DNA of 64,000 bases from Eutypa lata (Eukaryota > Ascomycota > Sordariomycetes > Xylariales > Diatrypaceae): assembly GCA_022661535.1 (NCBI GenBank), contig JAKULF010000020.1, positions 1 through 64,000 on the forward strand, given 5' to 3'. Position 1 is the first letter of the stretch. Each line of letters opens with the position of its first letter. Under the pieces are notes generated by a model, which did not search any database, was not told the origin of the DNA, and was given only the letters and a program-made list of their open reading frames with translations. Positions 222-64,000 of this stretch are shown here, one piece after another. The translations under genes and the position numbers were made by a program.

Positions 222-1040
222 TTATTAATATATTAAATTCGTTTCGTTTATTTAAATAATATTTATTATTAAAAAATTAATAAGTAAAGTTTTAACGACG
301 AATAAAACAAGTAATAAAAAGAAAAAAATTAACTTTAATAATAATTCGTTTATCTTTAATAATAACATTTAATATTTAAATTATAACTTTTAAAGCTTAA
401 TATTAATAAAAATTAATAATTATTATACGTAAATAATAAGAAATTATATATTTAAGCTTATCGAATTCGATAATATAAAATATAATTAATAATATAATTA
501 TTACTTTTTAAATTAATAAATTAATTAATATTTTATTTAATATTATATTAACGATAAATTTAACGATATAAAATAAAATCTATAATTAATATAAAATAAA
601 TATATAAATATAAAAGTTATAATAAATTTAAAAAAAAAAGAAATAAAATAATAAAAAAAAAAGGATAAAAACTTAACGAAATACCTTTAATACTTAAGTA
701 AAACGTAATTAAAGTAATTATATAACGTATATTTAATTAAATCGATTTAATCTTTTTAAAATTAATTAAATTATTAATGTTATTTTAACTTCGAATTAAT
801 AATTATTAATTAAATTTTAATTTATTTAAATCTTTTATTAATTTAAATTTAATTAATTCGTAAAAGATATTCTTTATTAATTATTTAATAATGTTAATTT
901 TGTTTTTATTTTAAATTTTACGGTTAATTTTTAAAGAATTTAAAATAAAAATATCTTTTAAATATAATAATATATCGAAAAAAAAAGCGTTTAAATAAAT
1001 TTACGTAAATTATTTATTCGAACGATTATTTAATTCGTAT

Positions 1041-1665
1041 ATTATTATTATTATTATTTTAATTATTTTAAAAAAAGTTATTTAAAAGTAATATTATATA
1101 AAAAAAGCTTAAAGCGTTATGATTTTTTTAATTAAAGTAATAATAATAATATATAAATTAAATAATTATTTAAATAAATAATTTATATAATTTAATTTAA
1201 ATTTATAAATTTATAAGTTTATAAGTTTATAAATTTATAAATTATAAATTATTTTATAAAATTATAAATTTATAAATTATTTTATAAGTTTATAAGTTAT
1301 TTTATAAATTTAAAAGTTTAAAAGTTTAAAAGTTTATAAATTTATAAATTTATAAGTTTATAAGTTTATAAGTTTATAAGTTTATAAGTTTATAAGTTTA
1401 TAAGTTTATAAATTTATAAATTTATAAATTATTTTATAAGTTTATAAGTTATTTTATAAGTTTAAAAATTTAAAAGTTTAAAAGTTTATAAATTTATAAA
1501 TTTATAAGTTTATAAGTTTTAAAGTTTTTTTAAATTATATTTTATTATTATTATTATTATACTTTTAACTATTTATAAAAAAGTTATATAAATATAATTT
1601 AATATAATAAAAGCTTTATATATTATAATTTTTTTAATTAAAATAATAATAATAATATATATATA
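1041..1665. repeat. Direct repeat pair flanking a minisatellite
   Basis: About 1041-1155 and about 1541-1665 share, in the same order and orientation, an ATT triplet run, aaaaaagttat, aaaaagctt, ttatgattttttt (or its mutated form), and a taataataatat run. They bracket the 9-bp minisatellite between them. This suggests an ancestral tandem or LTR-like duplication, now heavily mutated. Confidence 0.6.
1201..1520. repeat. A/T minisatellite, unit near tttataagt
   Basis: Repeated 9-bp units (tttataagt and variants tttataaat, tttaaaagt), with several uninterrupted copies near 1345-1410. The same motif recurs in reverse orientation in the array at about 2310-3230. Confidence 0.8.
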
Positions 1666-2309
1666 AAAAACGCATTTAAATACGTTTATAAAGTAATTTA
1701 TCGGTTTTAATTCGTACGGCTTTATTTTAAGTTGAAATAAATAATAAAGATTTTAATTTATATATTAATTTATAAATTTAACGTATATAAAGTTTTAAAT
1801 TTATTAAGTTTATTTTAAATTTATTACGAATTATTTTATATTATAATACGTTATTTTATAATATTTTAAAACTTAAAAATCATTAATTAAACTTAAGCCG
1901 TTATAATTTGTAAAATTTTTAAAGATTTAATTAATTAAAACTTAATATATTAACGTAATATATAATATATATACGACGGCTTAAGATTTAAAGCAAATAA
2001 AATTAACGAAATATATATTATTTAAGTTTATAATTATATTTAAAAAATATTTTTATTTTAAATTTTTTAAAAAATAATCGTAAAATTTAAAATAAAAATA
2101 AAATAAATATTTATTAATAATTAATAAAAAATACTTTTTACGAATTAATCGAATTCGAATTAATAAAGAATTTAAATAAATTAAAATTTATTTAATAACT
2201 TTAAATTTAAAGTTAAAATAACGTTAAAAATTTAATTAATTTTAAAAAAGATTTAAGATTTTAATTAAATATATTTTTTAAGTTTTATAAATTATTTAAT
2301 TTTAATTAT

Positions 2310-3230
2310 TTATAACTTATAACTTTTAAACTTATAAACTTATAACTTATAAATTTACTTTATAACTTTTAAACTTATAATTTATAAATTTATAATTTCT
2401 AAATTTATTTTATAACTTTTATACTTATAATTTATAAATTTATAATTTATAAATTTCTTTTATAATTTTTAAACTTATAATTATAAATAATTATAATAAT
2501 TAAATAACTTATAAATTTACTTTATAATTAATTTATAATTATATATAAATAATTATAATAATTAAAGATTTAAAAGTTATAAATAATAATAATTAAATAA
2601 CTTATAAATTTATTTTATAATATATAAATTTATAACTTTTAAATTTATAAATATAAATAATTATAATAATTATATAATAATTAATAATTATAAAAAGTTA
2701 TTATAATTAATAAAAGTTATAATAATTAATGTAAATAATAATAATTAAATAATTAATAAACTTATTTTATATTATAACTTTTAAATATATAATTAATAAT
2801 AATTATAATAATTAACGAAGATAATAATAATTATATAATAATAATAATAACTTATAAATTTACTTTATAATTTACATTTAAAGTTTTAATTATTTATAAA
2901 TTTAAAAGTTATTAATTTATAATTTATAAGTTTATAATTATATATAAATAATTATAATAATTAAATAATTATAACTTATAAATTTATAATGTATAATTTA
3001 AGCTTTAATTATTTATATATTTAAAGCTTTTAAATTTATAATTTATAAAATTATTAATTATTTTATAAATTTATAAATTTATAATTATTATATAATTATA
3101 TATAAATAATTATAATAATTAAATAACTTTAACTTATAAATTTATAATTATATATAAATAATTATAATTATAAATAATTATAAGTTATATAAACATAACT
3201 TATAAACTTAAAGCTTTAATTATTTAAAGA
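2310..3230. repeat. A/T minisatellite, reverse-orientation units
   Basis: Irregular array of aacttataa, aatttataa and ataattataataatt units. The aaacttata units are the reverse complement of those at 1201-1520. The array lies just outside the right arm of the inverted repeat. Confidence 0.65.
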
Positions 3231-3626
3231 TTTCTTTAAAATAATATAATTAAATAATAAAATTAAATAATAAAAGCTTTAATTATTTATTTAATTTTTA
3301 ATTAATTAATTCGATTATAAATTAATTAAACTTACGTATAAACGTAAAATTAATTATATATATATAAAGATAAAATAAAAGATTTTTATATAATAATTAA
3401 TATAATTCGTAATATAAAAAGCTTATAATATAATAATTAAATTCGTAAAACTTAAAGTTTAAATTTCGTATAAAATAAAAAAAGTAATTATTTTTTTATT
3501 TTTAAACATTTTTATATAAATTTAATTTTCGATTTTAAATTTAAATTAATTTATTATAATTAATTTAATATCGAAAATTAAAAGCGTATTTTATTATAAA
3601 TGTTATTATTTACGTATATATAATAT

Positions 3627-3687
3627 AACTTTTAAAATTAATAAATGTTATTATTTACGAAGTAAAATTTTATTAATTTTAAAAGTT
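3627..3687. repeat. 19-bp perfect inverted repeat (hairpin)
   Basis: aacttttaaaattaataaa at 3627-3645 is the exact reverse complement of 3669-3687, with a 23-bp spacer. It is embedded in RIP-mutated DNA; no function is apparent. Confidence 0.75.
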
Positions 3688-4300
3688 AAAAAAAAGTTTT
3701 TAAAGTTTATAAAAAGTCGTATTTTTTTATATTATAACGATTAATAAAATTTTAAATAAATAAATTATAAACATTATTAACGTTAATAATATTATTTATT
3801 TAATAATTAAACGAAAATATAATACGTAAAGAAATATTAAAAATAAATTATAAAGTTATAAAAAATATAAATTAATATATATAATAAAAACGTAATAAAA
3901 AAATATAATATATTAATTAAAAATAAAAATAATTAATAATATATATTTAATAACGATTTTAATATAAAAATTAAAAATTTTAAAATATAAAATATATAAA
4001 TAAATAATAAAAACGAAATAAAAAGAAATTAAAAAATATAAATATAATTATATAATAATTTTTAATATTTATTAATATTAATAATAATAATTATAACTTT
4101 AATAAAACGATATTATATTATTATTAAATATATTATTTAAATTAAATTTATAATATTTAAAATAATAAAATAATAAAATAATAAAATAAAACGTTATAAA
4201 TATAATTAAATTTATTATTTTATAATATATTATTTTTAATTATATAAATTTTTTTAAATAACAATTTATTTTAATTAAGCTTTATTTTAAGTTTAAATTA

Positions 4301-31202: not shown

Positions 31203-31923
31203 CTTATCTCACGATCGAAGGGGATAGCTATTACCTGAGAAGGAGGGAAATATGATCGGTTGAAGTTGACAACCTTTAAGCATATTTAAATTTATTTTCT
31301 GTGGTGCTGACAATATCTCCAACGCATATACCTATCCAACACCACCCCTACCCCTAAGTAGATACTTATAGCTGAGCAGCAGGGTCACCCTAGAAGCGCC
31401 CCGCCTCCAGGCAATCCGGGGGTGGGGCAACAAGAGACCACATAAGACCTCATCTCCTAGAGCATCATTCTACATAACCCTGATCTCTATTTTTGAGACG
31501 CTTAGGATGGATGCGAAATTAAAGAAAAACCATGATTATATGAAATTTGAGACGACCCGGCAACTCTTGAGATTTGAGTGCTTAGAATCAAATCCAAGCA
31601 TGAAAAGGATCTTCTTTTATCAGGTGTCTATTCGAATGCATGTCAGAAACACTTAGTAAGCATCTTGGCGGGAGGTCATCCGCGGAACCAAGCTACCTAT
31701 CAGAGCCTGGTAATCAGCAAGGGCCCGCAGCGGCCCACATCACGATGTCAGATTCAGGACCAACAGGACGGATTCTAATGTAGAAGTTGAGATAAAGACG
31801 AAAAGGAGCCTCTTCTGAAATGGACCCGTCACTACCTACCTACCTATGTAGTTTTATCGGCAATCTGCCGAGACCGAGTAACGGAAAAAAATCTAATAGA
31901 TCACATCTGAGACTGTCTGCACC
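31203..31923. promoter_or_regulatory. Bidirectional promoter region, transporter and anhydrosugar kinase
   Basis: 721 bp between two divergent start codons with no other gene. It contains a short ctacctacctacct run near 31831 and a GC-rich stretch near 31380-31430. Co-regulation of the two genes is an inference from arrangement. Confidence 0.5.
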
Positions 31924-33252
31924 ATGTCGAGTACCGTCATACCTAGTCAGCCTCTTGATATTACAGTCCTGGGCCTTAACTCGGGTACCTCCATGGACGG
32001 CATAGACTGTGCTCTCTGCCGCTTCAGACAAGACTCGCCTGATGCTCCCATGCACTTTGAGCTCCTCAAATATGACGAAGTTCCTCTCGAGCAGAGCATC
32101 AAAAAACGCGTCATGAAGATAATTCTGCACAATTCGACAACGCCGGAAGAGCTGTCGGAGGTCAATGTTCTCCTTGGTGAGACCTTTGCTGATGCTGTGA
32201 AGAGCTTCTCCGTGAAGCACGGGATTCCGCTCTCCTCTATTGATGTTATCGGCTCCCATGGCCAGACAATTTGGTTGCTCAGCATGCCCGACAAGGACCA
32301 GACCCGATCGACTCTGACCTTCGCTGAGGGTTGCTTCATCGCCTCTCGGACAGGTATCACCACGGTGACAGACTTTCGAGTCTCAGACCAAGCTGCGGGG
32401 CGCCAGGGCGCACCACTCATAGCCTTTTTTGACTCGCTCGTCCTACACCATCCTACCAAATTGCGTGCATGCCAGAACATTGGCGGTATCGCCAATGTGT
32501 GTTTCATTCCACCTGATGGGCCAGACGGCAAGCTTAACGATGAGTTCTTCGACTTCGACACAGGTCCTGGAAACATCTTCATTGATGCTGCCGTGCGGCA
32601 CTTCACTAACGGGGAGAGTGAATATGACCAGGATGGAGTGATGGGCAAGGGCGGTACCGTGGACCAAGAGATGGTCGACGAGTTCCTTAGCACGCACCCA
32701 TATTTCCCCCTCGACCCACCTAAGACAACGGGCCGTGAAGTTTTCCGCGACACTATCGCGCGTGACCTCATCGACAAAGGGGTGCGCAAAGGTCTATCGC
32801 CCAACGATATTGTAGCTACCATCACGCGTATCACGGCACAGGCCATTGTCGAGCACTATCGACGGTACATGCCGACGGGGTACGGGCCTCTAGCTGAAAT
32901 CTATATGTGCGGCGGTGGTGCCAAGAATCCCAACATTACCAGGCATTTGCAAGAAGCATTTCCGGAGACGCGCATTGTTATGCTAGACGAGGCAGGAATC
33001 CCTGCGGACGCGAAAGAGGCCATCACCTTCGCGTGGCAGGGCATGGAGGCCATCGTAGGTCGCAGCATCCCTGTTCCGACACGCGTTGAGACGAGAGCCG
33101 AGTATGTGTTGGGCAAGATAAGCCCTGGCAAGAACTACAGAAGGGTCATGAGGACGGGTATCGAGTTTGGTGCGGGAAGGGATCACCTTCAGCCGGTGAA
33201 AGAGCTAATCAACTATGTTGGTGGTAAAGTATTCAACAACGACATAGAATAA
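31924..33252 (+). CDS. AnmK-family anhydrosugar kinase, levoglucosan-kinase-like
   Basis: Single-exon gene, 442 aa. Members of this family hydrolyse the 1,6-anhydro bond and phosphorylate the sugar with ATP: AnmK acts on anhydro-N-acetylmuramate in bacteria, levoglucosan kinase on 1,6-anhydroglucose in some fungi. Seen: [12 protein letters not shown] (17-28, phosphate-binding), [26 protein letters not shown] (with the AnmK Asp base region), [16 protein letters not shown] and CGGGAKNP. Length matches fungal levoglucosan kinases (about 440). Lack of introns and the bacterial relatives suggest an old horizontal acquisition. Fungi have no murein of their own, so levoglucosan or scavenged anhydromuropeptide sugar is the likely substrate. 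The divergent transporter supports a catabolic role. Confidence 0.93.
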
Positions 33253-39094: not shown

Positions 39095-42000
39095 TCAAGG
39101 ACGTATTTGCCCTACCAGGCTCACCAGCTCATGATAATCACTATTGTTCTTCAACATCTCCCAAAATGGTCCCTCAATCCGTATTAAGTCCGCAGGGGTT
39201 CCAATTCTGCCAAATGTTAGTATCACAAGCATGTATGAGGGAAATGATGCGAATATAAAGAGATGACATACTCAATGACTCGGCCTTCTTCCATAACGAT
39301 CACCCGGTCGTAGTCCATTACCGTGCGGAGCCGGTGAGCAATAGTGATGATCGTAGAGCCCGCAAACTCGGAGCGGATGAGCTTTTGCATGCGCACGTCG
39401 GTCTCATGGTCCACCGAAGCGGTCGCTTCGTCAAGGATAACGACCTTCGACCTGCGGCACATAGCGCGAGCAAGGCCAAGAATCTGCTTCTGTCCATTAC
39501 TAAAGTTACTGCCGTTGCCTGTAACTTGTGTCCACGCCGCAATATCAAGGTTATTGTTAGATTCGCCATCATCACTCCGGCTATCCTGTAGTAAGCTGCA
39601 TGATGAAAGGACAGACTGTAGCTCTGCTTCATCAAGCTCTCCCAAGGGGTCTAAGTTGGATTTAATGTCCCCGGAAAACACTACCGACTCTTGTGGGACG
39701 AGGGTGATACACTGCCGAAGATGCTTCAGAGGGATATTATTAATGTCCACGCCGTCAATAAGTACCTTGCCAGAGGCTACGTGTGTGGAACGGATAAGCG
39801 TCCTTGCGACAGTACTCTTTCCACTTCCTGTGCGTCCAATAATGGCTACTCGTTCACCGGGTCTAGCAATGAAACTTATGCGGCGTAAGATGTCGGGACC
39901 GTTCTCCACGTAGCGGGCAGTGACTGCCTGAAATTCAACGCGGCCAGACGTCGGCCATGCCGCCGGAATCTCATTCTTCCCCAAGGCATCCGCTTGCGCA
40001 GGACTCTCCTCGGGCTCAATCTCCGCATATTCTGATATACGCTGGAACGAGTTCAATTCGACCTCTAACTCGTTCATGTTCCGCACCAATGTCAGTATGG
40101 TCTGGCTCAGGCCAATTGCGTTCGTTAAAGAGAACCCAACAAGGCCCGGGGACCCGGATTTATAGTAAGCGATGCAACCAGCCGTTGTGGCTATGATGGC
40201 CGCACAGCAATCGGATCTGACGGAAACCCAGCGGTTGCAGTTGTACTGGGCTTCATATGCTCGCATGTGTGTTGCGACCTTGTCAGCCAAGATCTCTTGA
40301 AAGACACGGTCTACGGACTGTCGCGCTCTAATGACAGCGATCCCCGATGAGGTGTCGCTGAAATGAGAGAACACGGGAGAGAAGTTCACAGCGCAAAGTC
40401 GCTTGACTGATATTTGTGCACGTGCGTACACCTCGCCAGTAGCAAAACCAATGAGACAGAAGAAACCGGCGGGTAAGGCAAAGATTGGCATTATTGCCGC
40501 GATGCTTGCCTACAAAGGTTTTAGTGTGAGATAACAGTTTGGTGTGGAGCATTAATAGGGGTAATGGAGACAATTGGTGGTTATTACTTACTAAGCGGAG
40601 AGCAAACCGAAGGCCATTGTCAAGAGTCATGCGGAGCCAATCCACCAGGATGCTATCCATAGACTGTGTATCTAATCCGAAACGGTTGACGATACGACCA
40701 ACCGGGTTACTATCGAACCAAGAGATAGGGGCTTGAAGGACAGCGGTAACTAGTCTCCCATGCATCGTCTGTGCCGCCTTCCAACCACCTCTTTGAAAGA
40801 TGAAGTTGTTAGTGAACTGGAGGGTTACGAATGCCAGTACAGTGCCAACATATATGAGGAGATAGGACGTCGCTTTAGCCGCGTAATTGTCTTCGTTGGC
40901 ATGTCCGGTCCAGACGGATAGCCACAAGGTAATCGAAAAATAAGCAACCTGCACTACAAGTGCGCTTACAACAGCGAGTGCGACAATGGGATAACCGCCA
41001 AAGAGTAGCATATACTTGAGAACTGTGCAATTGTAAGTTTAAATGGCGAAGTAAACGATGGAGAAAACCTACTAAGCCCACGAGGAACACGTCCTGATGC
41101 TTTGTGTTCTTGTGTCCCTGTCTCATCTAGATCTAGGACATGCTTCACGTAATCTTCGGACTGTTTTGATAAATATTCTGCTTCTTCCCCGTCTTCTATT
41201 AGTTCTCCCTCAGAGCTGGTGCTGCAGTCAGGCATTTCATTAACATAGAGTTCCGGCTGATAAGCGATTTCGTCCGACTTCGCATCAATGAATTGCTGTA
41301 TGGGCGTCGATTCGATTGCGGATAGTTTCCCCTGGGTGAGAGACACCACCATGCCTGCGTTCTCAATGGCGTGTCTAAAATGAGTCACTAGAATGACTGT
41401 TCGCTCGGCCAACAATCCACTACTAAAACATCTCTCATAAACCCGAGTGGTTGTGTGCGTATCGAGTGCTGAGAAGATGTCGTCAAGGAGAAGAGTCGAA
41501 GAAGGTGAGTAAAGTGCTCTCGCTAACGAAACTCGCTGCTTCTGGCCTCCTGAGAGACTGGACCCCTGCTCTCCGACGTGAGTCAGATCTCCTTTAGGAA
41601 GTTGTTTTAGGTCGTCGACGAGGTCGCATGCGTGGATGACTTCATTATACCTACGCTCATCGTACGAACTAAAGAAGAGAATATTCTGCCGGATTGTAGT
41701 GTTAAGAAGCCATGCAGTCTGAGGCACGTATGCTACATCTGAAGGGCAGCTTGCTTCTCCCGACTCCATAATAGTCTCCCCCAGCAGTGATAACAGCAAG
41801 GATGTCTTGCCGCTGCCAGTAGGTCCCGTCACCACGGTAAGGGATTTCTCGCGGAACGAGATTGAAATATCGCGCAGGCGGAATTCGGAAGATGGCCCTA
41901 GCCTGAAGGTCGCATTTTTAAACGCAGGGGGGCCGGTCGGGTGCCTCTTCTTCTCCACCACTGAATCAAAGAACTTGTCAACGCGCTGCACCGACTCATA

Positions 42001-43815
42001 TCCCTGTGCTACCCACAGAGCAACTTTTGAAAGCCAGACGAATTGTGTGCGCAATATCTCCGTGAGAGCCAGTGCGGTAAAAGCTGCAGGAGCCCGTAGA
42101 GGCTGATCGGTAAAGAGGACCAAAGACGAGAATGTGCATAGGAGACTGACGAGAGACAACACGTCGCCAGTCATAGAAACAAGCATCGAAATAATGTTGC
42201 GTTTCCAGATTCTCTGCTGCTCCGTCGCGCGAATGGCGTTGATCTTCTCAGAAGCCATTGTCTCCCAGGCGAAATATTTCAAAGTGCGAATCGAATGCAA
42301 GTACTCCGAGATCCTTGAGAGTCGAGCATCCGTGGCTTGCATCACGAACCTGTGTAGCCGAGATAACCGTCCAGAAAATAGGGCGGGAATCGGGCTCAGA
42401 GATATCAAGACGGCAACACCAACAAAAGACGGCCATCCCAGGAGGTGATACAGGAATGTCATGGCAATTACTGCAGACATCGTACTAGCCGTCATGGCGT
42501 AAACGATATCGGTAGCGTTCGAGATGTTATCGGCGTCATACGACACAAGGCTTTCCGTTTTGACGGAATTAAACCCGAGGATATCTGAGGGGGATCTACC
42601 TAGCGAATCTGGAGTCTCTTCGAGTTCGCCGTTCCGAGTCCCTGAACCGTCATCCAAATGCGATGATATCATCTTATGATATATATCTTGAATCATGGTT
42701 GCTTTCACTCGGACGAGAAGTCGGGTGCCTACAAAGATGGATTGCTGATAGCAGACAGACCGTGTCATGGGTCCTATAAAAAGGAGGGCGATCCATACGA
42801 ATGGATGCACAATTATAGCATTCGAATCCGGCTTCTCCAGGTAGCTTAGAAGGTGTAGCATGGCAAATGGTGCAATATATTCAGCAAAAGCTGTAGTGAC
42901 TGACCAAAATAGGATCGTTCCGATATCTTTTTGGAATACTTTCAGTAGGGTCGACAGTGTCTTACCTCCCCTAAGACGTATCCTGCACATACGACTTAAC
43001 CACTCTAGCGGTGCATCATACGCTGGTAGAGGTGGAAGGTCTTCTATGGTAAGGTCTCGGCGGAAGCCTTTCAAGGTGAGATTTGTTAGCCAGCCATATG
43101 AAACATAGTAAGAGAACCACGAGCACGTCTCCTCCGGCGATGGTATTTCCTTGCATTCTCGAACTAGACTTTCTGGGTTCGGCTTCTTGTTTCTCGAGTG
43201 CCGAGGGGTGATGAACGAGATGAGTGGCACGAAGGCTAAACAAGCCAGCTTCCCGAGCTCAAGAGTAGTTGGTGTATTGTGCGAACCGATAATCGTGATG
43301 GGGAGTAATTTGGCGATATCCAGGGCTGTAGCGGCTGCTGCGACTCCGTTCATGTGGTGGTTCATTAAGACAGTGAGTTGACTCGATTTAGCGATGCATA
43401 GTGAGAAATTCAGAATAAATATGTAACCAAGAACGATTGTTTCCTTCCATGCAGATCCATGTCGTAGCGCAGCGTAGAGCGTGAGAGAGAAGGCGGCGGC
43501 TGCGAATACTGCCTGTGGTATGGCATATTCAGGAGAGGTATGTTGTCTGGATGCTTGCCTAAGCAACGCCTTGGAGACATTGAGCTTTCCTTTTCGTCTG
43601 TTGATTAGAGCCACGGATGCAAAAAGCCAGATGAGAGACAGGGCGAAGAATGCGATATGTAGGTAGCCTGTGTAAATAAACTCCGATATAGTACTCGTGC
43701 GGTGTAACCATATCGTTCTTTTTGATAGTCCATCACCGAAGCCTAGCTCTAGTTCTCCAGGGGCTATCTGCAGGTCCAATATGGCGCTTGCGTGTTGAAG
43801 GGGGATTTGCGCCAT
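39095..43815 (-). CDS. ABCC (MRP) multidrug transporter, full length
   Basis: 1,507 aa, complement(join(39095..39206,39272..40509,40592..41022,41073..43815)). Layout: N-terminal TMD0 helices (about 45-260), TMD1, NBD1, TMD2, NBD2. NBD1: Walker A GPTGSGKTS (about 665), signature LSGGQKQRVSLARAL, Walker B LLLDDIFSALD. NBD2: Walker A GRTGSGKST (about 1,282), signature FSNGQKQILGLARA, Walker B VVILDEATASVD and the switch His in IAHRL. Full ABCC transporters export glutathione or other organic-anion conjugates from plasma or vacuolar membranes. The start MAQIPLQHAS was preferred over an ATG 29 codons upstream because the latter peptide is hydrophilic and not family-like. The C-terminal exon (IGTPADLIRIEGPFWEML) fits the family end. 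Substrate unknown. Confidence 0.94.
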
Positions 43816-44691
43816 GTTCGTTGAGCTGACCCAATGACATTGCGAGAATCGTCTGTCTGGTCGTCTGTCTATATTATAAGTTTCATGATGACGGCAATGC
43901 AACTAACTTTAGAAGTCAAACAACTGTGAATTCTCGTGGTCTCCATCGGCTCGCCACCGCGGCGCTTCTATGGTAGGTATAAACTACCTTCCGTTCGCCG
44001 GTGCTTAGCAGGCGCTATTCTCAAAAACCCAGCACCGTTTCAAGCAGCCTAAGGGGCGAAAACAGTGCTAAAGGTTGGCGTCGACAATTCACAGCTTATT
44101 CCCGGGCACCGGGGCATGGGGAGCCGCCTTAGGAAACTACCAGTATCGGCAATGAAGATTTTCAATACTGCCCTATCATTGGCTGGATTAGGCGAAAGGG
44201 TTTCCTAATATGGAAAGTCTTGACCCGATAGGCCTTGAGGCTGATCGACATAGGCTAATAAAGTATCAATTAACTAATATATTTTACCTTACGAAGCGAA
44301 GAAGAGCGAGTTACACTCAATTATTAATAACTATACTAAAGTGTATCCATCTATACATACAGCTACAATAACTTTGGGTGATCGGTTCATGACGGGGATT
44401 TGCCGATTTCATATTTCTAGAGGCGATGAGAGCAAGTGGGACAGTTGCATAGACATCCGCAGCTGATGATAACTACGAGGGAGGGGAGGAGGATTTCAGA
44501 CAAACGCAAGTATCTAAAATTCAATTTGTGTTGACACGCATTCTACTTATGTGCTTGGAAGCCTTGCATAGGGGTAAGGCCTTGAAGGCAATTTGATATG
44601 TGACATTGAATATTCATAATCCGTATGCATCCAAATCAATTCCCCGAATACCACTATCACTTCATGATGATACTTATTGTTATACTAGTAT
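43816..44691. other. Intergenic, no gene seen
   Basis: Promoter side of the ABC transporter and 3' flank of the carboxypeptidase. No coding signal. Confidence 0.55.
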
Positions 44692-46527
44692 TCACTCTGT
44701 CCAGCCGTCGAAATTGCGAATCAAATCTTGGATAGTTAATATGTCATCTTTCAGTGCGTCTTAGACCAATATCGGAACTTACCATAGTAGAGCCTCATGC
44801 CCTCCAAGTGGGCTGTCATGCCCATGCGCTCATCGACGGCATGTTGATTTAGTCTTGTTCCATCTCTGGCAGGAGTGAAGCGGTATATATTCTTAGTCAA
44901 ATTCCAATAATGCACTGTGTCCGTGTTGCCCGTCATTATATTTCCAGCAGGAATCACCGTCTTGCCTTGTCCTGCTTCAGTGCTCTCAAACACATAGCGT
45001 AGCGTACCACTGAAGACCGTCCATACGCCACCATCAGTAGGAGAGATCGGGGCTAGATCTAGCGTCTGAAGCCCTACCAAACTCAGAGATCCATTCGAAG
45101 TATTATTGCTACCCAGTATTGTTGTGTTGAAGTACTCAAACGTGAGTCCGTATTTGCGCGCAATCGGGATCAGAACTTTTCGAAGGTGCTGGTTCACATA
45201 CGTGATAGATTCATGCAGCGCAACGCGATGATTTACCTGGATCTGAACCTCCTCCGGGAGAGCGTTGACTTTATGGCCCCCAGTAATGACATCAACCGCT
45301 TGACTCGTCTGCATCAACCACCTTTCGTCCAACATGACATTAGCAAGCTTATCCGCAATTTCTTCCTCGCCGTCGTTGAGAAGCGCATCGCTTAGCCACT
45401 CTGGGACTGCATCGGGTGAGTGCTTCGCATTGCATTCTAGGACTCTTCGGAATGGGTTTGACTGGGTAAGACGCGGGAGGTAGGGCTCGTTTTCCAGGGC
45501 TAGAATGGCATCGGCCATGATGCCAATACCCGTGTGCACGGGAGGCCTTGAGCTATGGCCGCCCTTAACTTGAAGCACCACCTGGACGTCATGATATCCC
45601 TTCTCACCAACGCCAGGATAGGCATACAGGACATCTCCAAGGGTCTGTACACCCATCCCACCTTCGTCGAGAACGAAGAGGAAAGAATCCGAGCCCCATT
45701 CTTCAACCAACGATATATTAAGTGATGCGGCACCTCTTAGGCCACCCGTCTCTTCGTCGAATCCGAAGGCAAGTACGACAGTGCGTTGTGGCGCGAACGA
45801 TTGAGAGAGAAGGTCTTCGATGACGGACAGAACCCCTATAAGGACGTTTTTGCAATCGGCTGCTCCACGACCCCATATGAATGAACCGTCGTAATGGGCG
45901 GAGAACGGTGGGTATTTCCAGAGGGAAGAATCGCCTGCGGGAACGACATCTTGGTGCGCTGTAAAGAGGATAGGTTTTAGAGAGGAATCCGATCCCCTCA
46001 AGGTATACTGAAGACCATAACGGTTTATCTTACGGAGCTCGAGGTTGGAATGGCTGTGATCGTAATATTATTAGAAAAGAAACCCATATGGGAAGGGAGT
46101 ATGCTACATACACAAGGGGGAAAAGCTCGCTTAAGACCTTGTGAAAGTCCTCAAATGTCTCCCAGCGAGGATCCTCGTTGGCGTCACCGTTGTCATCGAA
46201 GCTCTCGGTGGGGACTTGGACAGCTGCCGTAAGTCGATCAATCTGAAGTTGCAGCTGCTCGGGGCTCATTAAGTGGTTACTTGGCTTCAGGCCGTCATCA
46301 CTAGAAGAGGTAACATTTGGCAATGGACACCACTCATCTGCAGTGCGTTGTCTACTGAAGGAGGATTGGGTCAAGCGACGACTGAGTTCTGAGGCATTGA
46401 CGAAGTGCAGGGGGGAGACAAGGTAAATTACAGTAACCAATAAAAGTAAGCCAAGACATTGTGTCCGTCGATTATGAATGTTAGGATTCCCGGGGTCGGA
46501 CCTGGCACTTCCATGATATTTCTCCAT
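44692..46527 (-). CDS. M20 carboxypeptidase S-like, membrane-anchored
   Basis: Zinc metallopeptidase of family M20A, similar to yeast vacuolar carboxypeptidase S (Cps1), which releases C-terminal residues from short peptides. 573 aa, complement(join(44692..44726,44783..46053,46112..46527)). A signal anchor lies at residues 24-43. Metal site: His172 and Asp174 in FTAHQDVV, Asp in WGRGAADCKN, the Glu pair in FGFDEETGG, Asp in VLDEGG, His in NQHAVDER. Dimerisation-domain sequence GGHSSRPPVHTGIG is present. The short last exon encodes DLIRNFDGWTE, the usual end of Cps1 proteins, so the frame running through its donor is not the true C-terminus. It probably supplies amino acids from peptides; neighbours include a regulator and a permease. 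Confidence 0.93.
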
Positions 46528-46912: not shown

Positions 46913-48906
46913 TCAGATAATAAACAGACCTGTGGTCTGCTTCATGACGTCTAAATAATCAACCCTGGCACCTTCTCTACTCTGTACCTTAATGACTTGC
47001 TCAAGCAGTATGCGTGTCTTTCCAAAGTTGGCACCCCATACTTCGGAATCAGCAAGTGTTCTTATCACCCAGTCCTGATGTACTATGTCCGTAGTTTCGA
47101 TGCCAGCTAGGAAGAGGATGCGAGGCCAAATGTTTTGCGGCGAGGGCGGCCGAAATCGACATACCGTAGAGGCTATACGGATAGTGCGGGTGGCAGCGGA
47201 TTCTGCGGAAATCAATTTTTTGGGTAGGCTATTTGCTACGACGGCAGGTAGCATCCTGTGAAAGCAGATGACTACGCTGTAGAATGTTGCTAAGAGGAGA
47301 AGGCAGTTGAAGCGCTTCATGGATATCTTCCCGCTGAGTGAGCGGGTAGGGTTTTGTAAGGTGGAAACAATGGAAGCCATCGTCACGTCATCTTCGAGCC
47401 GCTCCTGGATCGATAACAGTTCAGACTGCACGGCTGCCCATATCGCAACCGGTGCTGTGACCTGCCTACGATGTAGATGTACGATTCTTCCTTCTGCTGT
47501 ATCAAGTTCTAGATTCAGGCGGAGACATGGCTTGGTTTCTTGTAGCCCGGATGTAGTAGGCTTCACATCTGGAAAGGCTGCGCTGAGAAAGTCATGTTCT
47601 GAACTGAACAGTTCAAGATTCTGTAAGAGGCGCCCCGTGCCTCCAATCCAGGAGGCCCGAGCGTCATAAGCCGCCAGCCAGACTAATACGCGACTACCAA
47701 TAGGTCCAAGAGGAGCAGCCTGTCCTCCAGCCTTTTGGTGGCGTCGATGAGCATCAACTAGGTCGGCAGTGAACTCTAGATGTCGACAGAAGGGGGTGAT
47801 ACCAGAGGCTGCCAGAAGTTCAAATTGGAGGGCGAACCAGATTGTGATAAGGGAAAGCTCGAAATGATGAGCGACGTCTTGATCACGATGCATCAACGAG
47901 ACAGCATGGGAATACCGGTCTCTAGCCTTTTGAATTGAATCGGGTTCGGATCTCTGCTGAGCGAGATGTAGGGCGGTCCATGCCATTACAGAATGGTACA
48001 ATGGCGCATAGAAGAGCGCCATGTCGCTGAAGATCTGGCCGTAGAGATTTTCATCACCGGAGTATCGTATCTTTGCGTAACCGGTCATAACGTTAAGGTA
48101 ATGTTGGATAAGACCGTTGTCTTCTGGACGGATGACAACAGTGGTATCTTCTTGGTCGGACTCTAAAACATCGACCGGACGAGCCGTCGACTCTGCCATT
48201 GACCCATCACCTCCTGTTTCTGGAGACGGGAACCAATTTTCATCAAGTAAGTCGAAGTTCATGTCAAGGTCAAAGAAGGACGGCATGTGTCCTGGGTGCA
48301 CATGGGCGTCTTGCGCATTCAGATGTTGCGGGTTCAGAACAACGGCGACATTAGCATTAGCCTGATCCTGTGTTACCCCGAGGGAGACATCATAGCGAGA
48401 CGAGCCAGCAGTGGCGGGAGTTGGGACAGGAGGTCCGTCTCGTATGTAGCAGTTGCGCAAGGCTTCCATGTTTTCTTGCATACCTATGCTGCCCGTGTTA
48501 ATATTTGATGGCTCTGGGCAGCCCCCCCTTTCGGGCACAGAGTGCAGGCGAGATTGCTCGGGTGATGAAGTCTTAGTCTCATTTTGCTCGGCCTCGCCGC
48601 GTGGGAGCTTTGTGTATTGAGAATTCACGAACCGCACACGGTATCGAGATGTCCCCGTAACGCTTGCCGCCCGGTCAGGCTCGAAGGAGCAATTCAGCCC
48701 GAGGCGTGTGCACGCTCTGCAGACGGGCTTGGTCTCATCACACCGGACTTTCCGTCGACGGCATGAAGAGCATCCTGCGAAGATTTAGAAACGCGCACGC
48801 CAAAGCGGTAAGTACAACAACAAGAGAGGTGAGAAAGACCTGTCTTGGTCCTGGCCGGCCGGCTTCGCTTCATGCCGGGTGCCGCCTCTGCTACTGATCT
48901 AGTCAT
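46913..48906 (-). CDS. Zn2Cys6 transcription factor
   Basis: Fungal binuclear zinc-cluster regulator, 642 aa, complement(join(46913..48774,48840..48906)). The cluster is canonical: Cys24, 27, 34, 41, 44 and 51 (C-x2-C-x6-C-x6-C-x2-C-x6-C) within KTGCSSCRRRKVRCDETKP. The intron splits the Gly codon just before the first Cys, a common position in this family; its donor (GTCTTT) is weak. The rest resembles the 'fungal-specific transcription factor domain 2' group: YSHAVSLMHRD, HHFELSLITIWFALQFELLA, SWIGGTGRLL. It is nuclear. A second ATG at 48873 is possible. It is divergent from the MFS permease and downstream genes are catabolic, so it is a candidate local activator. Confidence 0.92.
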
Positions 48907-51332: not shown

Positions 51333-52160
51333 TCAGTTAGGGTTTTATCACTATAGAACTTCAATTATGTTCATGTATAGTGTATTTCTTCTTAGGCGGA
51401 GGCTGAAAGGGGCTATTAGGTGATGGGGAAGATCAAACTACGATTTTAATGCCAAGGATAACCATGATCTCTCGGAGGTAACCGTAGAATCTGCAGATAA
51501 TCCATACCATGCGCCACTCTCAACGCGAGGTCGCAAATCTAGAGACTCCAAAAGTGACAAAGCCAATCTAATCAAGTTCTACGAACCGCCCCACCGTGAT
51601 CAATTAGTAGTAACATGAAATGAATGCATATCGTTGTTACAATGGCAGACTAGTATCAAGGCGCGTGGATTATGCCCATGTTCTCTCTTTTTCTTTCTCC
51701 GATATAGGATATGGCCTCGAACGCGTAAGTACGCGGAGATTCAACGGGGAGACACGAAAATGTGATCTTTACATGTTCGGATGCATGCGACAACATGCAG
51801 TTGGAGGCATCTGAGTATGTTCTAGTTTCTTCAGACCACTTATCGGCGTATTGCGACCATTCCACACTTCATAGTTATCGTAGGTATGATATCCCCGGTT
51901 GTGTTCGGCAAACAATTTCCTATTTCGGCATAAGCCTAGCGACTGTCTGGTTAGCCTCCCCTTTATTCATAATTCAGGTTAATCAATGGAGTACGAAGTA
52001 TTAATTTTGATATCGGTATGATCATGTTGGGCTACTACGTATGAACAGTTGGGGTGTTAGATTCAGTTATGTATCAAAGGTTAAATAAATACTTAAATCA
52101 TATTGGCATGTTTTTTCACAGCCGATATCATTCATGCGTTGTCGATAGGTGTTGTAAGAC
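51333..52160. other. Intergenic, no gene seen
   Basis: 3' flank of the permease and promoter of the amidohydrolase. Short ORFs near 51620-52004 on both strands show no family resemblance. Confidence 0.5.
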
Positions 52161-55152
52161 ATGGAGAAGGCCAGGCAGATGAGCCCCAACAATAGGGGTA
52201 GTAGTCAACGCTATAGCCAGAGCAGCAGTATTGTACCTACTACCAATAGGGCTCTTGTATTGAGTGTTATTGCATCTATCTCTACAACTTATTTTCTCTC
52301 AAATTATTGGCATTTACCTTACAAACAAGAAGATCGTATAATTCCACATGGAATCCCTAAGGCAGACTTTGAATATGGCCTTACACAATGTGCCCTCAAC
52401 CGAGAACGTCCCACAGTGGATCGGAATTTAGCATCCACTCGTCTTGCCACACATACACGAACCGGATCCGGTTCCGGTCCCCGGAAAATCCTCTTCAATG
52501 CGACGCTGGTTGATGGTGATGGGACTGTCACATGGAACTGCAACATTGAGATGCAAGATGGCATTTTCACGCGGGTTTCCACCGACCCCCTGGATTTTAT
52601 GGAACTCGGCTCATCCCCGAACACGGAGTTGGTAGATCTTGGCGGTCGAATTGTGACGCCGGGCCTCATAGACATACATTCACATGTCGGTGTAAGGGAG
52701 ACGCCACAAATTTGGGCAACAGAGGACGTGACTGAGATCTCAGCGCCAGTTACTCCCTGGGGACGCGCTATAGATGCTTTCAAGCCCCATGATGGCGCGA
52801 TCCCAGTCATCGCCAGCGGGGGCGTGACGACATCGCTGGTGCTCACCGGTGCCAAGAACCAGATCTCAGGTGAAGGCGTCGTTGTGAAGATGAAGCACGC
52901 CAATTCGGTTCTAGGTATGCTTGTCAACCAGACAGAAAGTGGCGTAAAGCCGCAGAGATATCTTAAGATGGCTATGGGAGAGAATCAGAAGAGGCAATTT
53001 CAGAATGTAGCCGGCGGACCATCAACTCGGATCGGAGAGTCGTACTGGTATCGCAAGGCATACGAAAGTGCACGCCGGGTTAAGTTAGAACAGGATATCT
53101 GGTGTGCTGCGGCTTCGAAGGCAACCGGTCCAAATTCGATAACTCAAGAATACCCCCATTCTTTGGAGTGGCAGACGCTAGTCGATGTTTTGCGAGGCGA
53201 TGTTAACGTTCATGTGCATGGCTATGAGACTGAAGATATCCTAGCTATGTTCGACCATGCAGATGAGTTCGGATTCAACATCACAGCACTACACCATGCG
53301 CTTCATGCCGATTTACTTTTAAATCAGATCAAGGATAGGGGTATCGCTGTTGTTGGTTTCTCAGATTCATGGGGAGACAAAAAGGAGCTCTATGATGTAA
53401 GCTCATCATATCCCCAGAAGATTGCCGGGAGTGGCATTCCTTTCGCTCTTACCCGTGACCATCCCGCAGAGCATGGTCAATGGCTAGCATACGAGGCGCA
53501 AATCGGACATCACTTTGGCCTTGAAACAAACCATGCGATTTCGTCTATTATTTCAGTACCGGCTCGGCTTCTTGGCATGGATAACAGACTTGGATTCGTA
53601 CGGCCTGGCTACGATGCAGATCTCGTCGTCTGGGACAGACATCCTCTGCGAGTAGGTGCGTCGCCTCTTGAGGTCTTTATTGATGGAAGTAGTATCATCA
53701 AGGCTTCCGATAGCCTTTGGACCAGGTCAAAATCACCGGACTTTGAGAATGAGGCGCCACAGCCGCGACCAACGACGGTACCCCGGGATGAGTGCAAACC
53801 AGGTTACTCCGATGTGGTTATTCGTGGTTTGCGGGAGAGCTTCATTGGCGACAATGGTACACGGAGTGAAGAGACCAAGATTGGAGACCTCACGGCTGTG
53901 ATACGCTCAGGTCAAGTATTATGCGTTGGTGGAACAGAATGTGATGACATGGCAGAGAAAGCCGTGGACGATGATGTTCCAGTCATGACACTCGAGCAGG
54001 GCTATATGCTTCCGGTATGCTATTCCCTTATTCATTATAGGTTTACCTCTTCTAAGTGCACACCAGGGCTTGACAATTGTTACTCGACTACATGGCTTAG
54101 TGGAGATGCGCCAAGAGCCTTCAACTGGGGATGGTGCCTCTGTAGGCGATAGATACGAAAGACCTCTTGAAAGCAGATTTGGCATTAAGTTCGATGGCGC
54201 GCATATAGAGAGAGCCCACCGGGGTGGAGTTACTCGCATCGTAACGCCGCCGCTTACTGATGGCTTCTTCCACGGCATTAGCACTTTGTTCCGCTCGGGG
54301 GCAAAAAGTGGTACGTGAGCTTGCCTCCTAATATACGATCGAGAGACTAACATAGATTAGTACTTGATGATGGTGCAATTGCTGTATCTAATGTCGCGCT
54401 GCATTTCACCATCGGACATGATGGTAAAAGTAAGTCTCTGTCATTAGTCCACCCCTCTTATGCCGAATCATTCAAACCTCTAATCGGTATTCATAGACCC
54501 AGCAACGCCGTCCATCACGTCGCAGGTCAGCAAGCTACGGGATCTATTGACGATAGACAAACACATCCACACTGTTTACCAAAGAGCCGCGAAGGCGGAG
54601 ATTCCTGTTGTCGTCCATACCAACAACAAAGACATCATCGCACAAATGATCGCTCTAAAGCGGGAGACAGGCGCTCATATCGTCATAATGGGCGGCGCCG
54701 AAGCCCACCTACTGGTGACTGAACTCGCAGGGGCAAACATGCCTGTAATTTTCACCCCTTTCTGGGGATGCGAGCCTCTCTTCTGGGATGGCCGTAACTG
54801 CCTTCCCGGTCCGCCTCTCCAGGATCAACTAGGTCCCCAAGTGTTGATGGCGGCTGGTGTCAAGGTTGCCATTTCGAACTTCGATGACACGAACAACCAC
54901 ATCCGGAATAGCATATGGGAGGCTAGCTGGCTCGCTGGGCCCGGAAACCATAGTCAGGCGCTCGACTTAGTTTCGAAGAATATTGAGGATATCCTGCTGC
55001 TTCCACGAACCCAGGACTTCGTAGTATATGAAGGTAGCCCATTTGACTTCGGGTCCCGTGTTGCCCTGATTTTCGAAGAAGGCAAGATACAACGCTGTTA
55101 TCCAGACGTTGATGAAGTTTCAAGGCAGGATAAGATTGGGTTGAGGTCGTAG
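52161..55152 (+). CDS. Membrane-anchored amidohydrolase (carbohydrate esterase 9-like)
   Basis: Large metal-dependent amidohydrolase, 940 aa, join(52161..54014,54067..54310,54361..54429,54497..55152). One transmembrane helix lies at residues 31-48, so the catalytic part is probably lumenal or extracellular. Metal-site segments: GLIDIHSHVGV (HxH), ALHHALHADLL, GFSDSWGD; then RLGFVRPGYDADLVVWDRHP, the closing strand of the composite domain. A second, related module follows (GLTIVTRLHGLVEMR, PVVVHTNNKD, SPFDFGSRVALIFEEGKIQRC), so the protein looks like a tandem or extended fungal-type enzyme. Fungal homologues are annotated as carbohydrate esterase family 9 (N-acetylglucosamine-phosphate deacetylase relatives). 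Imidazolonepropionase-like activity is an alternative. Substrate uncertain. Confidence 0.88.
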
Positions 55153-63025: not shown

Positions 63026-64000
63026 TCATCGAATCACATCACCCTCCTTGTCAATACCCTCGTTCATCTCCAAGATGTCGCTGCCGGCGAGCACTCCGCT
63101 ATCTAACCCCGTAGTGGCCTTGCGTCCGGCGGTCCACACCTCATGGAACTTGACGCTCTCGTCGCTGCTCGCAACGACAATACACCCCTCGGCTGCGGTC
63201 CGGCTGCGCAGCCGCTTCCTCGTGCGGTAGGTGTCGCTCGGGCCCCCGGGATACGGGATCGCGTAGAGGGCGCGGTGCTCGCCCTCCTAGGGAACGGCGG
63301 CAACCTGACGGCACTCGGGCCAGCTGAACACGGCGATGCGGTACGGGTGGTCGGGCTGCGCGTATCCGAACGTGGCGACTATCTCGCGCCGCGTCGTGCT
63401 CCAGATCAGCGACGTGACCTGGGCTGCTACCGAGATGCTGGCCAGTGCGGCTCCCGACGATGTGTGGAAGAAGTGGATGCACTTATCGTTAGATCCACCA
63501 CCTGTAGCAATTAAACCCTTGCGCCAGGGGCAGAAGGCGATCGCCTTCACGGCTGCGCCATGCTGCCATCTGTATCTCTCGGAACCAGCTGGTAAACTCT
63601 TACTGGTAGGAGGTGCCTCTTGACCCCCTAGTATCTCAGCATCTACATCGATGATCTTTTTCCAGTCAAATAGACAGCATAGATTATCATTTCCACCTGT
63701 AGCGAACTCTTCTCCAGTGTGCGACCATGCTATGCCGCAAACCTGCTGCGAATGCACTTTGACTTGTGCGAGGAGGGTTGTTGCTCCGGGCCAGTTGTGT
63801 TTATTTACTTCCTAGGGATCTGGCCATTCGACAGAGTAGAAATAGACATCTCCCAACTCGTCACCAAGTAGAAGACCCTCTGTTTGGACTGGCGCTCCTG
63901 CACTCAATGGGTTTAGTGATGCGTGGGTCATGGGAGTCGGACGCCAGCTTAGACATGCTACTGGCGCTACTTGCTGGGATTCAAATCGAGGTAACATGTG
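63026..64000 (-). CDS. AMA1: APC/C activator AMA1, 3' part, with two in-frame TAG codons
   Basis: Meiosis-specific Cdc20-family WD40 activator of the anaphase-promoting complex; the 5' part lies beyond the window. One frame runs from the right edge to TGA at 63026-63028. Family segments: MLPRFESQQVAPVACLSWRP, GDELGDVYFYSVEWP, HSQQVCGIAW, ATGGNDNLCCLFDW, LIATGGGSNDKCIHFFHTSSG, QVTSLIWS, then SSDESVKFHEVW and the terminal Ile-Arg that docks on the APC/C. The frame is broken only by TAG at 63814-63812 (after EWPDP, before EVNKHNWPG) and at 63289-63287 (after VAAVP, before EGEHRALY). Both fall where relatives have Trp, and both read CCC-TAG-GA. No intron explains either. Editing-dependent expression or a recent pseudogene are the alternatives. 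Confidence 0.85.

Follow-up and report, generated by a model that had tools for sequence, protein, structure and literature searches.

AMA1 of a Xylariales fungus carries three UAG codons at conserved tryptophan positions, probably corrected by sexual-stage RNA editing

A 64,000-nucleotide stretch of Eutypa lata DNA (contig JAKULF010000020.1, positions 1–64,000; the window, with the contig referred to as C12) ends within AMA1, a gene of the family of meiosis-type WD40 activators of the anaphase-promoting complex/cyclosome (APC/C). The gene is most probably functional, with three premature UAG codons (83, 351, and 526) that would be corrected by adenosine-to-inosine (A-to-I) editing of its mRNA in the sexual stage; we place the probability of this reading at roughly 0.85, on the basis of sequence comparison. 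Editing of AMA1 is in itself already published, and what looks new is the presence of three sites in one gene, at codons mostly unlike those marked in Fusarium, together with a likely deep conservation.

On the minus strand of positions 63026–64000, 324 codons and a TGA form one frame in which the only in-frame stops are two TAG codons, at 63814–63812 and 63289–63287, both lying inside TCCCTAGGA. Translation confirms the frame, the positions and the shared sequence as given in the initial annotation, made from the letters alone. The window is the start of C12, within an assembly of 54.5 Mb and 29 contigs, and the model of AMA1 was extended past the window using fetched sequence (C12:62001–72000). 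The whole model comprises 612 codons, including 15 TGG and three TAG codons and ending at a true stop, TGA, with no other internal stop and no need for a frameshift. The earlier count of exactly two TAG codons thus holds for the segment and not for the whole gene. The other Trp codons of the segment are indeed all TGG, ten in number rather than about nine, and the first site does occupy a Trp position, in a family motif with two residues between Pro and Trp (VEWPxx[W]EV) instead of the single one originally described. The elements of the gene are as follows.

C12:65082–64855 and 64695–64319, minus strand: earlier exons of AMA1, outside the window (gene model; the first acceptor is uncertain)
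C12:64677–64675, minus strand: TAG codon 83, the third in-frame stop, in the 5′ part just outside the window (gene model)
C12:64259–63026, minus strand: full last exon (gene model)
63026..64000, minus strand: 3′ part of the last exon, codons 289–612 and TGA, with a WD40 domain of the CDC20/Fizzy kind (translation, gene model, Pfam, and PDB matches)
63812..63814, minus strand: TAG codon 351 at a conserved Trp, VEWPDP-[W]-EVN, with the putative edited A at 63813 (translation, alignment; codon also marked in other Xylariales annotations)
63287..63289, minus strand: TAG codon 526 at a near-invariant Trp, VAAVP-[W]-EGEH, with the putative edited A at 63288 (translation, alignment)
63026..63028, minus strand: TGA, the true stop of AMA1 (translation, gene model)

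The identity of the product as AMA1, a WD40 activator of the APC/C, is borne out by a CDC20/Fizzy domain and by protein matches that include entries named meiosis-specific APC/C activator AMA1. The Pfam family WD40_CDC20-Fz matches with E 2.7e-44 and 152 bits, below the curated cut-off of 200 bits, probably because the segment carries only part of the domain, and the PDB matches are Slp1, Cdc20, and Cdh1. The sequence DRFVPIR, which we take to be the C-box, is located near the N terminus. As far as the genome search goes, AMA1 is a single-copy gene; the only other protein matches are on contig C14 (40% and 35% identity) and presumably represent Cdc20 or Cdh1. A search for the AMA1 DNA in viral and prokaryote contigs found none.

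All three TAG codons fall on conserved Trp positions in a frame that is otherwise intact. Among 120 listed relatives of the 1023 found, codon 351 corresponds to Trp in 103, with six proteins not reaching it, four having a gap, and seven another residue, and codon 526 corresponds to Trp in 119. A second search, aimed at residues 1–210, returned 105 proteins, and Trp stands at codon 83 in 97 of the 106 examined (100 new, five from Monosporascus, and one from Trichoderma). The residues SHGTV that precede the TAG at codon 83 match the S[HN]GAVW motif of relatives, and this TAG is therefore taken as a codon and not as a splice acceptor. The chance that three random stops would all be TGG-to-TAG changes is about 0.0006–0.011, depending on the transition bias, and rises to 0.025 if only G/C-to-A/T transitions are allowed. 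Further disabling mutations in the 5′ part had been named as evidence that would speak against editing; that part adds one in-frame TAG (codon 83), no frameshift, and no other stop, and since this TAG is of the same kind as the other two, it is not counted as disabling.

The annotated proteins of relatives independently betray stops at the same codons. Gene models evade an in-frame stop by ending at it, by starting after it, or by placing a false intron over it, and all three faults have been described for a conserved editing site of Fusarium CHE1 (PMC11169179). For an exon to begin directly after a codon, that codon must end in AG, as is true of TAG but not of TGG, TAA, or TGA. At each of the 18 Trp positions, deletions of at least six residues that resume exactly at the next residue, as well as proteins that end exactly before the position, were counted in 105 proteins. 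Exact resumptions number two at codon 83, 33 at codon 351, and 13 at codon 526, and none or a single one at any of the remaining 15 Trp codons, which are TGG here; ten proteins end exactly before codon 351, with zero or one ending so elsewhere. A recount on 254 proteins by a slightly different rule gave two, 33, and 14 resumptions, respectively, and up to four at other Trp codons (four at 158, two at 180, and two at 256). In addition, P0002, a protein 91% identical to AMA1 of the window, begins at the second residue past codon 351, as expected of a gene caller working behind a stop. Since the models of relatives resume or end at this codon, codon 351 is probably TAG across much of Xylariales, and marks at the same codons make both an assembly error and a recent decay unlikely. 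They also suggest that many of the deposited AMA1 models of Xylariales are wrong.

Sexual-stage A-to-I editing in Sordariomycetes, carried out by Tad2–Tad3 together with Ame1, reportedly favours an A that follows U and lies in a hairpin loop (PMC11156358, PMC11087585, PMC9600606), and the surroundings of the three codons agree with this. The contexts are CU[A]GUCC at codon 83, CU[A]GGAA at codon 351, and CU[A]GGAG at codon 526, all with U at −1 and G at +1. Within ±30 nt, the predicted probability that the A lies in a hairpin loop is 1.00, 0.94, and 0.99, respectively, compared with a mean of 0.39 for the 59 other UA sites of the coding sequence, 41% of which exceed 0.5; the values of codons 83, 351, and 526 are reached by 3%, 17%, and 7% of these sites. 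The hairpin proposed initially for codon 526, a pairing of CCC with GGG, is replaced in the lowest-energy fold by one of UUC with GGA, the target A remaining in the loop.

The genome contains a Tad2-like gene (L044) and a Tad3-like gene (L049), the latter with the Glu of the HAE motif replaced, as well as two DUF726 genes (C9:2183872–2184947 and C11:1672271–1673329) that are Ame1-like candidates by sequence. In the copy on C11, a Met-Val pair lies 29–30 residues upstream of the GYSLG Ser, a spacing that differs by one residue from that reported for Ame1 (counted by eye), and in the copy on C9, Leu-Asp is found at the corresponding place; the Met-Val pair is reported as needed for the role of Ame1 in editing (PMC11087585). 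The C9 copy was itself considered as a carrier of one TAG editing site and rejected, as its stops sit in a short intron.

If the stops are corrected in this way, the unedited mRNA of vegetative cells would yield no more than residues 1–82, and mRNA edited in part would give fragments of 350 or 525 residues. In fruiting bodies, the Tad2–Tad3 deaminase and its sexual-stage partner Ame1 would convert each UAG to UIG, read as UGG (Trp), so that the complete 612-residue protein would be confined to them. The fraction of full-length protein would roughly equal the editing levels of the three successive sites multiplied together. The conversion of UAG to UGG put forward in the initial annotation remains the best explanation and fits published work, with three TAG codons in place of two and with an idea that is not new for AMA1; the further statement that editing gates meiosis may be too strong, going by the title of Hao et al.

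The distribution of the stops over lineages was followed in a table of 116 hand-chosen proteins of the 254, drawn from named taxa plus six others, and the window (117 rows), each site being given a state by rule. The Xylariales clade takes up 80 rows, of which 44 (the window included) are stop-like at codon 351, 17 have Trp, 17 have an ambiguous gap, and two do not cover the codon; in the 37 rows outside the clade, codon 351 is Trp in 33, stop-like in one, and another residue in three. A quick tree that omitted the columns around the sites has 114 inner branches for the 117 rows, 32 of them starred and 43 open, with long branches that meet. On this tree, with ambiguous rows left out, the fewest changes are one at codon 83 (104 rows scored, six stop-like, three of these less certain), one at codon 256 (99 rows, two stop-like), ten at codon 351 (95 rows, 45 stop-like), and 14 at codon 526 (83 rows, 15 stop-like). 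The stop at codon 351 thus looks old in Xylariales, with repeated change, and its TAG is probably conserved over much of the order; codon 526 looks as if it turns over often, and the stop at codon 83 looks common to AMA1 of the window and Monosporascus. Conservation of the TAG codons among relatives, a point raised in the initial annotation, is in this form probable for codon 351 in much of Xylariales; it is not universal there, and codon 526 looks variable.

Several observations weigh against dependence of AMA1 on editing at these codons. The stop states of relatives are taken from protein annotations and not from their DNA, and single cases could be wrong. Of the 50 gaps that span codon 351, 19 have their left edge at −19, a pattern that a genuine intron common to these relatives would give as well; the remaining 31 have various left edges. 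Many gaps at codon 526 do not resume at +1, a common one extending from −3 to +24, and these were scored as ambiguous. Two of the 14 proteins that resume at codon 526 in the recount (P0198 and P0200) belong to Lachnellula, a member of Leotiomycetes, a class in which editing has reportedly not been found (PMC11087585); such marks are therefore not always due to editing. The stop at codon 351 is not universal in Xylariales, as the 17 clade rows with Trp demonstrate. The sole residue other than Trp at codon 526 among the 120 listed relatives is the Gln of P0005, a protein from an ENA record that is 98% identical to AMA1 of the window; the strain may have CAG there, or its gene caller may have read TAG as Gln. 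At codon 83, position +3 is C and not the preferred A or G. The loop predictions vary with the length folded: the probability of codon 351 drops to 0.46, 0.20, and 0.31 at ±12, 15, and 20 nt, and that of codon 526 is 0.02 at ±100 nt. Distant ascomycetes seldom have individual edited sites in common, according to a study that also discusses a neutral origin (PMC5381528).

Finally, no second edited gene was found in the genome among the kinases, DNA methylases, and SPO22 that were looked at. A PUK1-like kinase with TAGTAG was sought through 141 matches, 30 of whose loci were fetched, and no PUK1 was recognised among the nine stop-bearing loci inspected by eye; these nine were also rejected as edited genes, their stops looking like intron stops. 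Seven DNA-methylase matches were found, none with stops, and the SPO22 gene is present with a TAG at its locus, which was not counted as edited.

The alternative that survives best, although we consider it unlikely, is that the TAG codons are real 3′ splice sites at which, in some stages at least, short in-frame segments are spliced out. All three could serve as AG acceptors, the automatic annotations of many relatives set exons directly after these positions, the left edge of the 19 gaps described above is a single one, and the stop site of FgBUD14 is subject to both editing and alternative splicing according to a review (PMC11156358). However, splicing would take out conserved WD40 coding sequence that relatives with Trp retain without a gap, and the left edges of the other 31 gaps over codon 351 vary. 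In ten relatives, the annotated protein terminates at codon 350 and is not spliced there, and the residues before the TAG of codon 83 fit the family motif.

A decaying pseudogene in an asexual lineage is far less probable. Three nonsense codons would be in keeping with decay, and a search for an alpha-box mating gene came back empty, although such a result does not show absence; on the other hand, there is no frameshift and no further internal stop, all three stops are TAG at Trp positions, the same codons are marked in relatives, and a 243-residue protein with 98% identity (ENA record) keeps the frame. Inactivation of AMA1 by repeat-induced point mutation (RIP) was rejected for this single-copy gene, the indices of its coding sequence being normal (TpA/ApT 0.63 and (CpA+TpG)/(ApC+GpT) 1.18) by the generally known range.

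Reading of UAG by translational readthrough or by a suppressor tRNA would also result in a full-length protein and is just as improbable as decay. The classical signal for UAG readthrough is CAR-YYA, unlike the 3′ contexts found here (UCC, GAA, and GAG). Inspection of the nine kinase loci by eye showed no in-frame TAG at conserved positions of exons, and either process would leave the placement of all three sites at Trp unexplained. Assembly or sequencing errors turning TGG into TAG are the least credible of all: the TAG state does rest on the assembly and not on raw reads, but three separate sites are concerned, and independent records of other species are stop-like at the same codons.

Editing thus remains the preferred explanation, and it brings AMA1 of the window close to several known systems. 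AMA1 of F. graminearum (FgAMA1, FGRRES_10728), of the orthologous family, belongs to a set of about 70 genes whose full-length products reportedly depend on UAG-to-UGG editing in perithecia (PMC4817773, PMC11156358, PMC9499528). The putative Fusarium sites are taken here from annotated proteins. In F. oxysporum and F. tricinctum, the protein picks up again exactly after the Trp that corresponds to codon 256, a TGG codon in AMA1 of the window; in F. lateritium and F. anthophilum, the gap at this place is wider, and F. piperis has Trp there. The protein of F. tricinctum also resumes after 526, so that this site may be shared with AMA1 of the window, whereas at codons 351 and 83, TAG in the latter, the Fusarium proteins that extend over these positions have Trp. 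PUK1 and the other premature-stop genes of F. graminearum resemble AMA1 of the window in having stops at coding Trp codons and annotation introns that dodge the stop. PUK1 likewise has more than one stop, but as a tandem UAGUAG (PMC4817773), in contrast to the three of AMA1, which are distributed along the entire frame. Fusarium CHE1 shares a conserved stop site in relatives and the same annotation faults (PMC11169179); unlike it, codon 351 of AMA1 appears to span much of Xylariales. In the openly accessible literature that was searched, AMA1 editing is described for F. graminearum only, and Xylariales are named in connection with A-to-I editing only for transcription-factor orthologs.

The window begins with CCCTAA telomere repeats over approximately the first 220 bases, and AMA1 therefore lies about 63 kb from a chromosome end. 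Next to the repeats comes a very AT-rich stretch of about 4 kb (4–11% G+C per 500-base step from 500 to 4000). A 450-residue open reading frame (ORF) on the plus strand (31900–33252) strongly matches anhydro-N-acetylmuramic acid kinase (AnmK, E 4e-84), a family best known from bacteria, and is possibly an old transfer into fungi. ABC transporter ORFs occupy 39223–43902 on the minus strand, and near them are a Zn2Cys6 transcription factor (46913–48784), an M20 peptidase (44751–46067), and an amidohydrolase (52158–54152). Structure prediction for AMA1 from a single sequence gave a pLDDT (predicted local distance difference test) of 30 and was discarded, and prediction from an alignment gave a pLDDT of 79 with WD40-like strands, placing Trp 351 in a short helix between strands and Trp 526 just after a strand; neither was used as evidence.

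We can speculate, at slightly less than even odds, that dependence on editing evolved repeatedly in AMA1 at different Trp codons. Codon 351 would have turned into TAG early in Xylariales and mostly stayed so, the stop at codon 526 would have come and gone frequently, in separate orders, that at codon 83 would have been added in a Monosporascus-like lineage, and Fusarium would use codon 256, with selection acting to keep full-length Ama1 out of vegetative cells and not to maintain any one site. The use of different codons in different lineages agrees with the rare sharing of sites noted above (PMC5381528). If this is true, a gate made of three successive sites would be tighter than one with a single site. 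It is debated whether premature-stop editing of fungal genes is adaptive or the outcome of a ratchet acting on neutral defects, and AMA1 offers a natural test, since its plain frame has seemingly been lost at several codons in separate lineages and one of the stops has apparently been kept over much of an order. Such recurrence on one gene at different sites would argue for selection on the gate itself.
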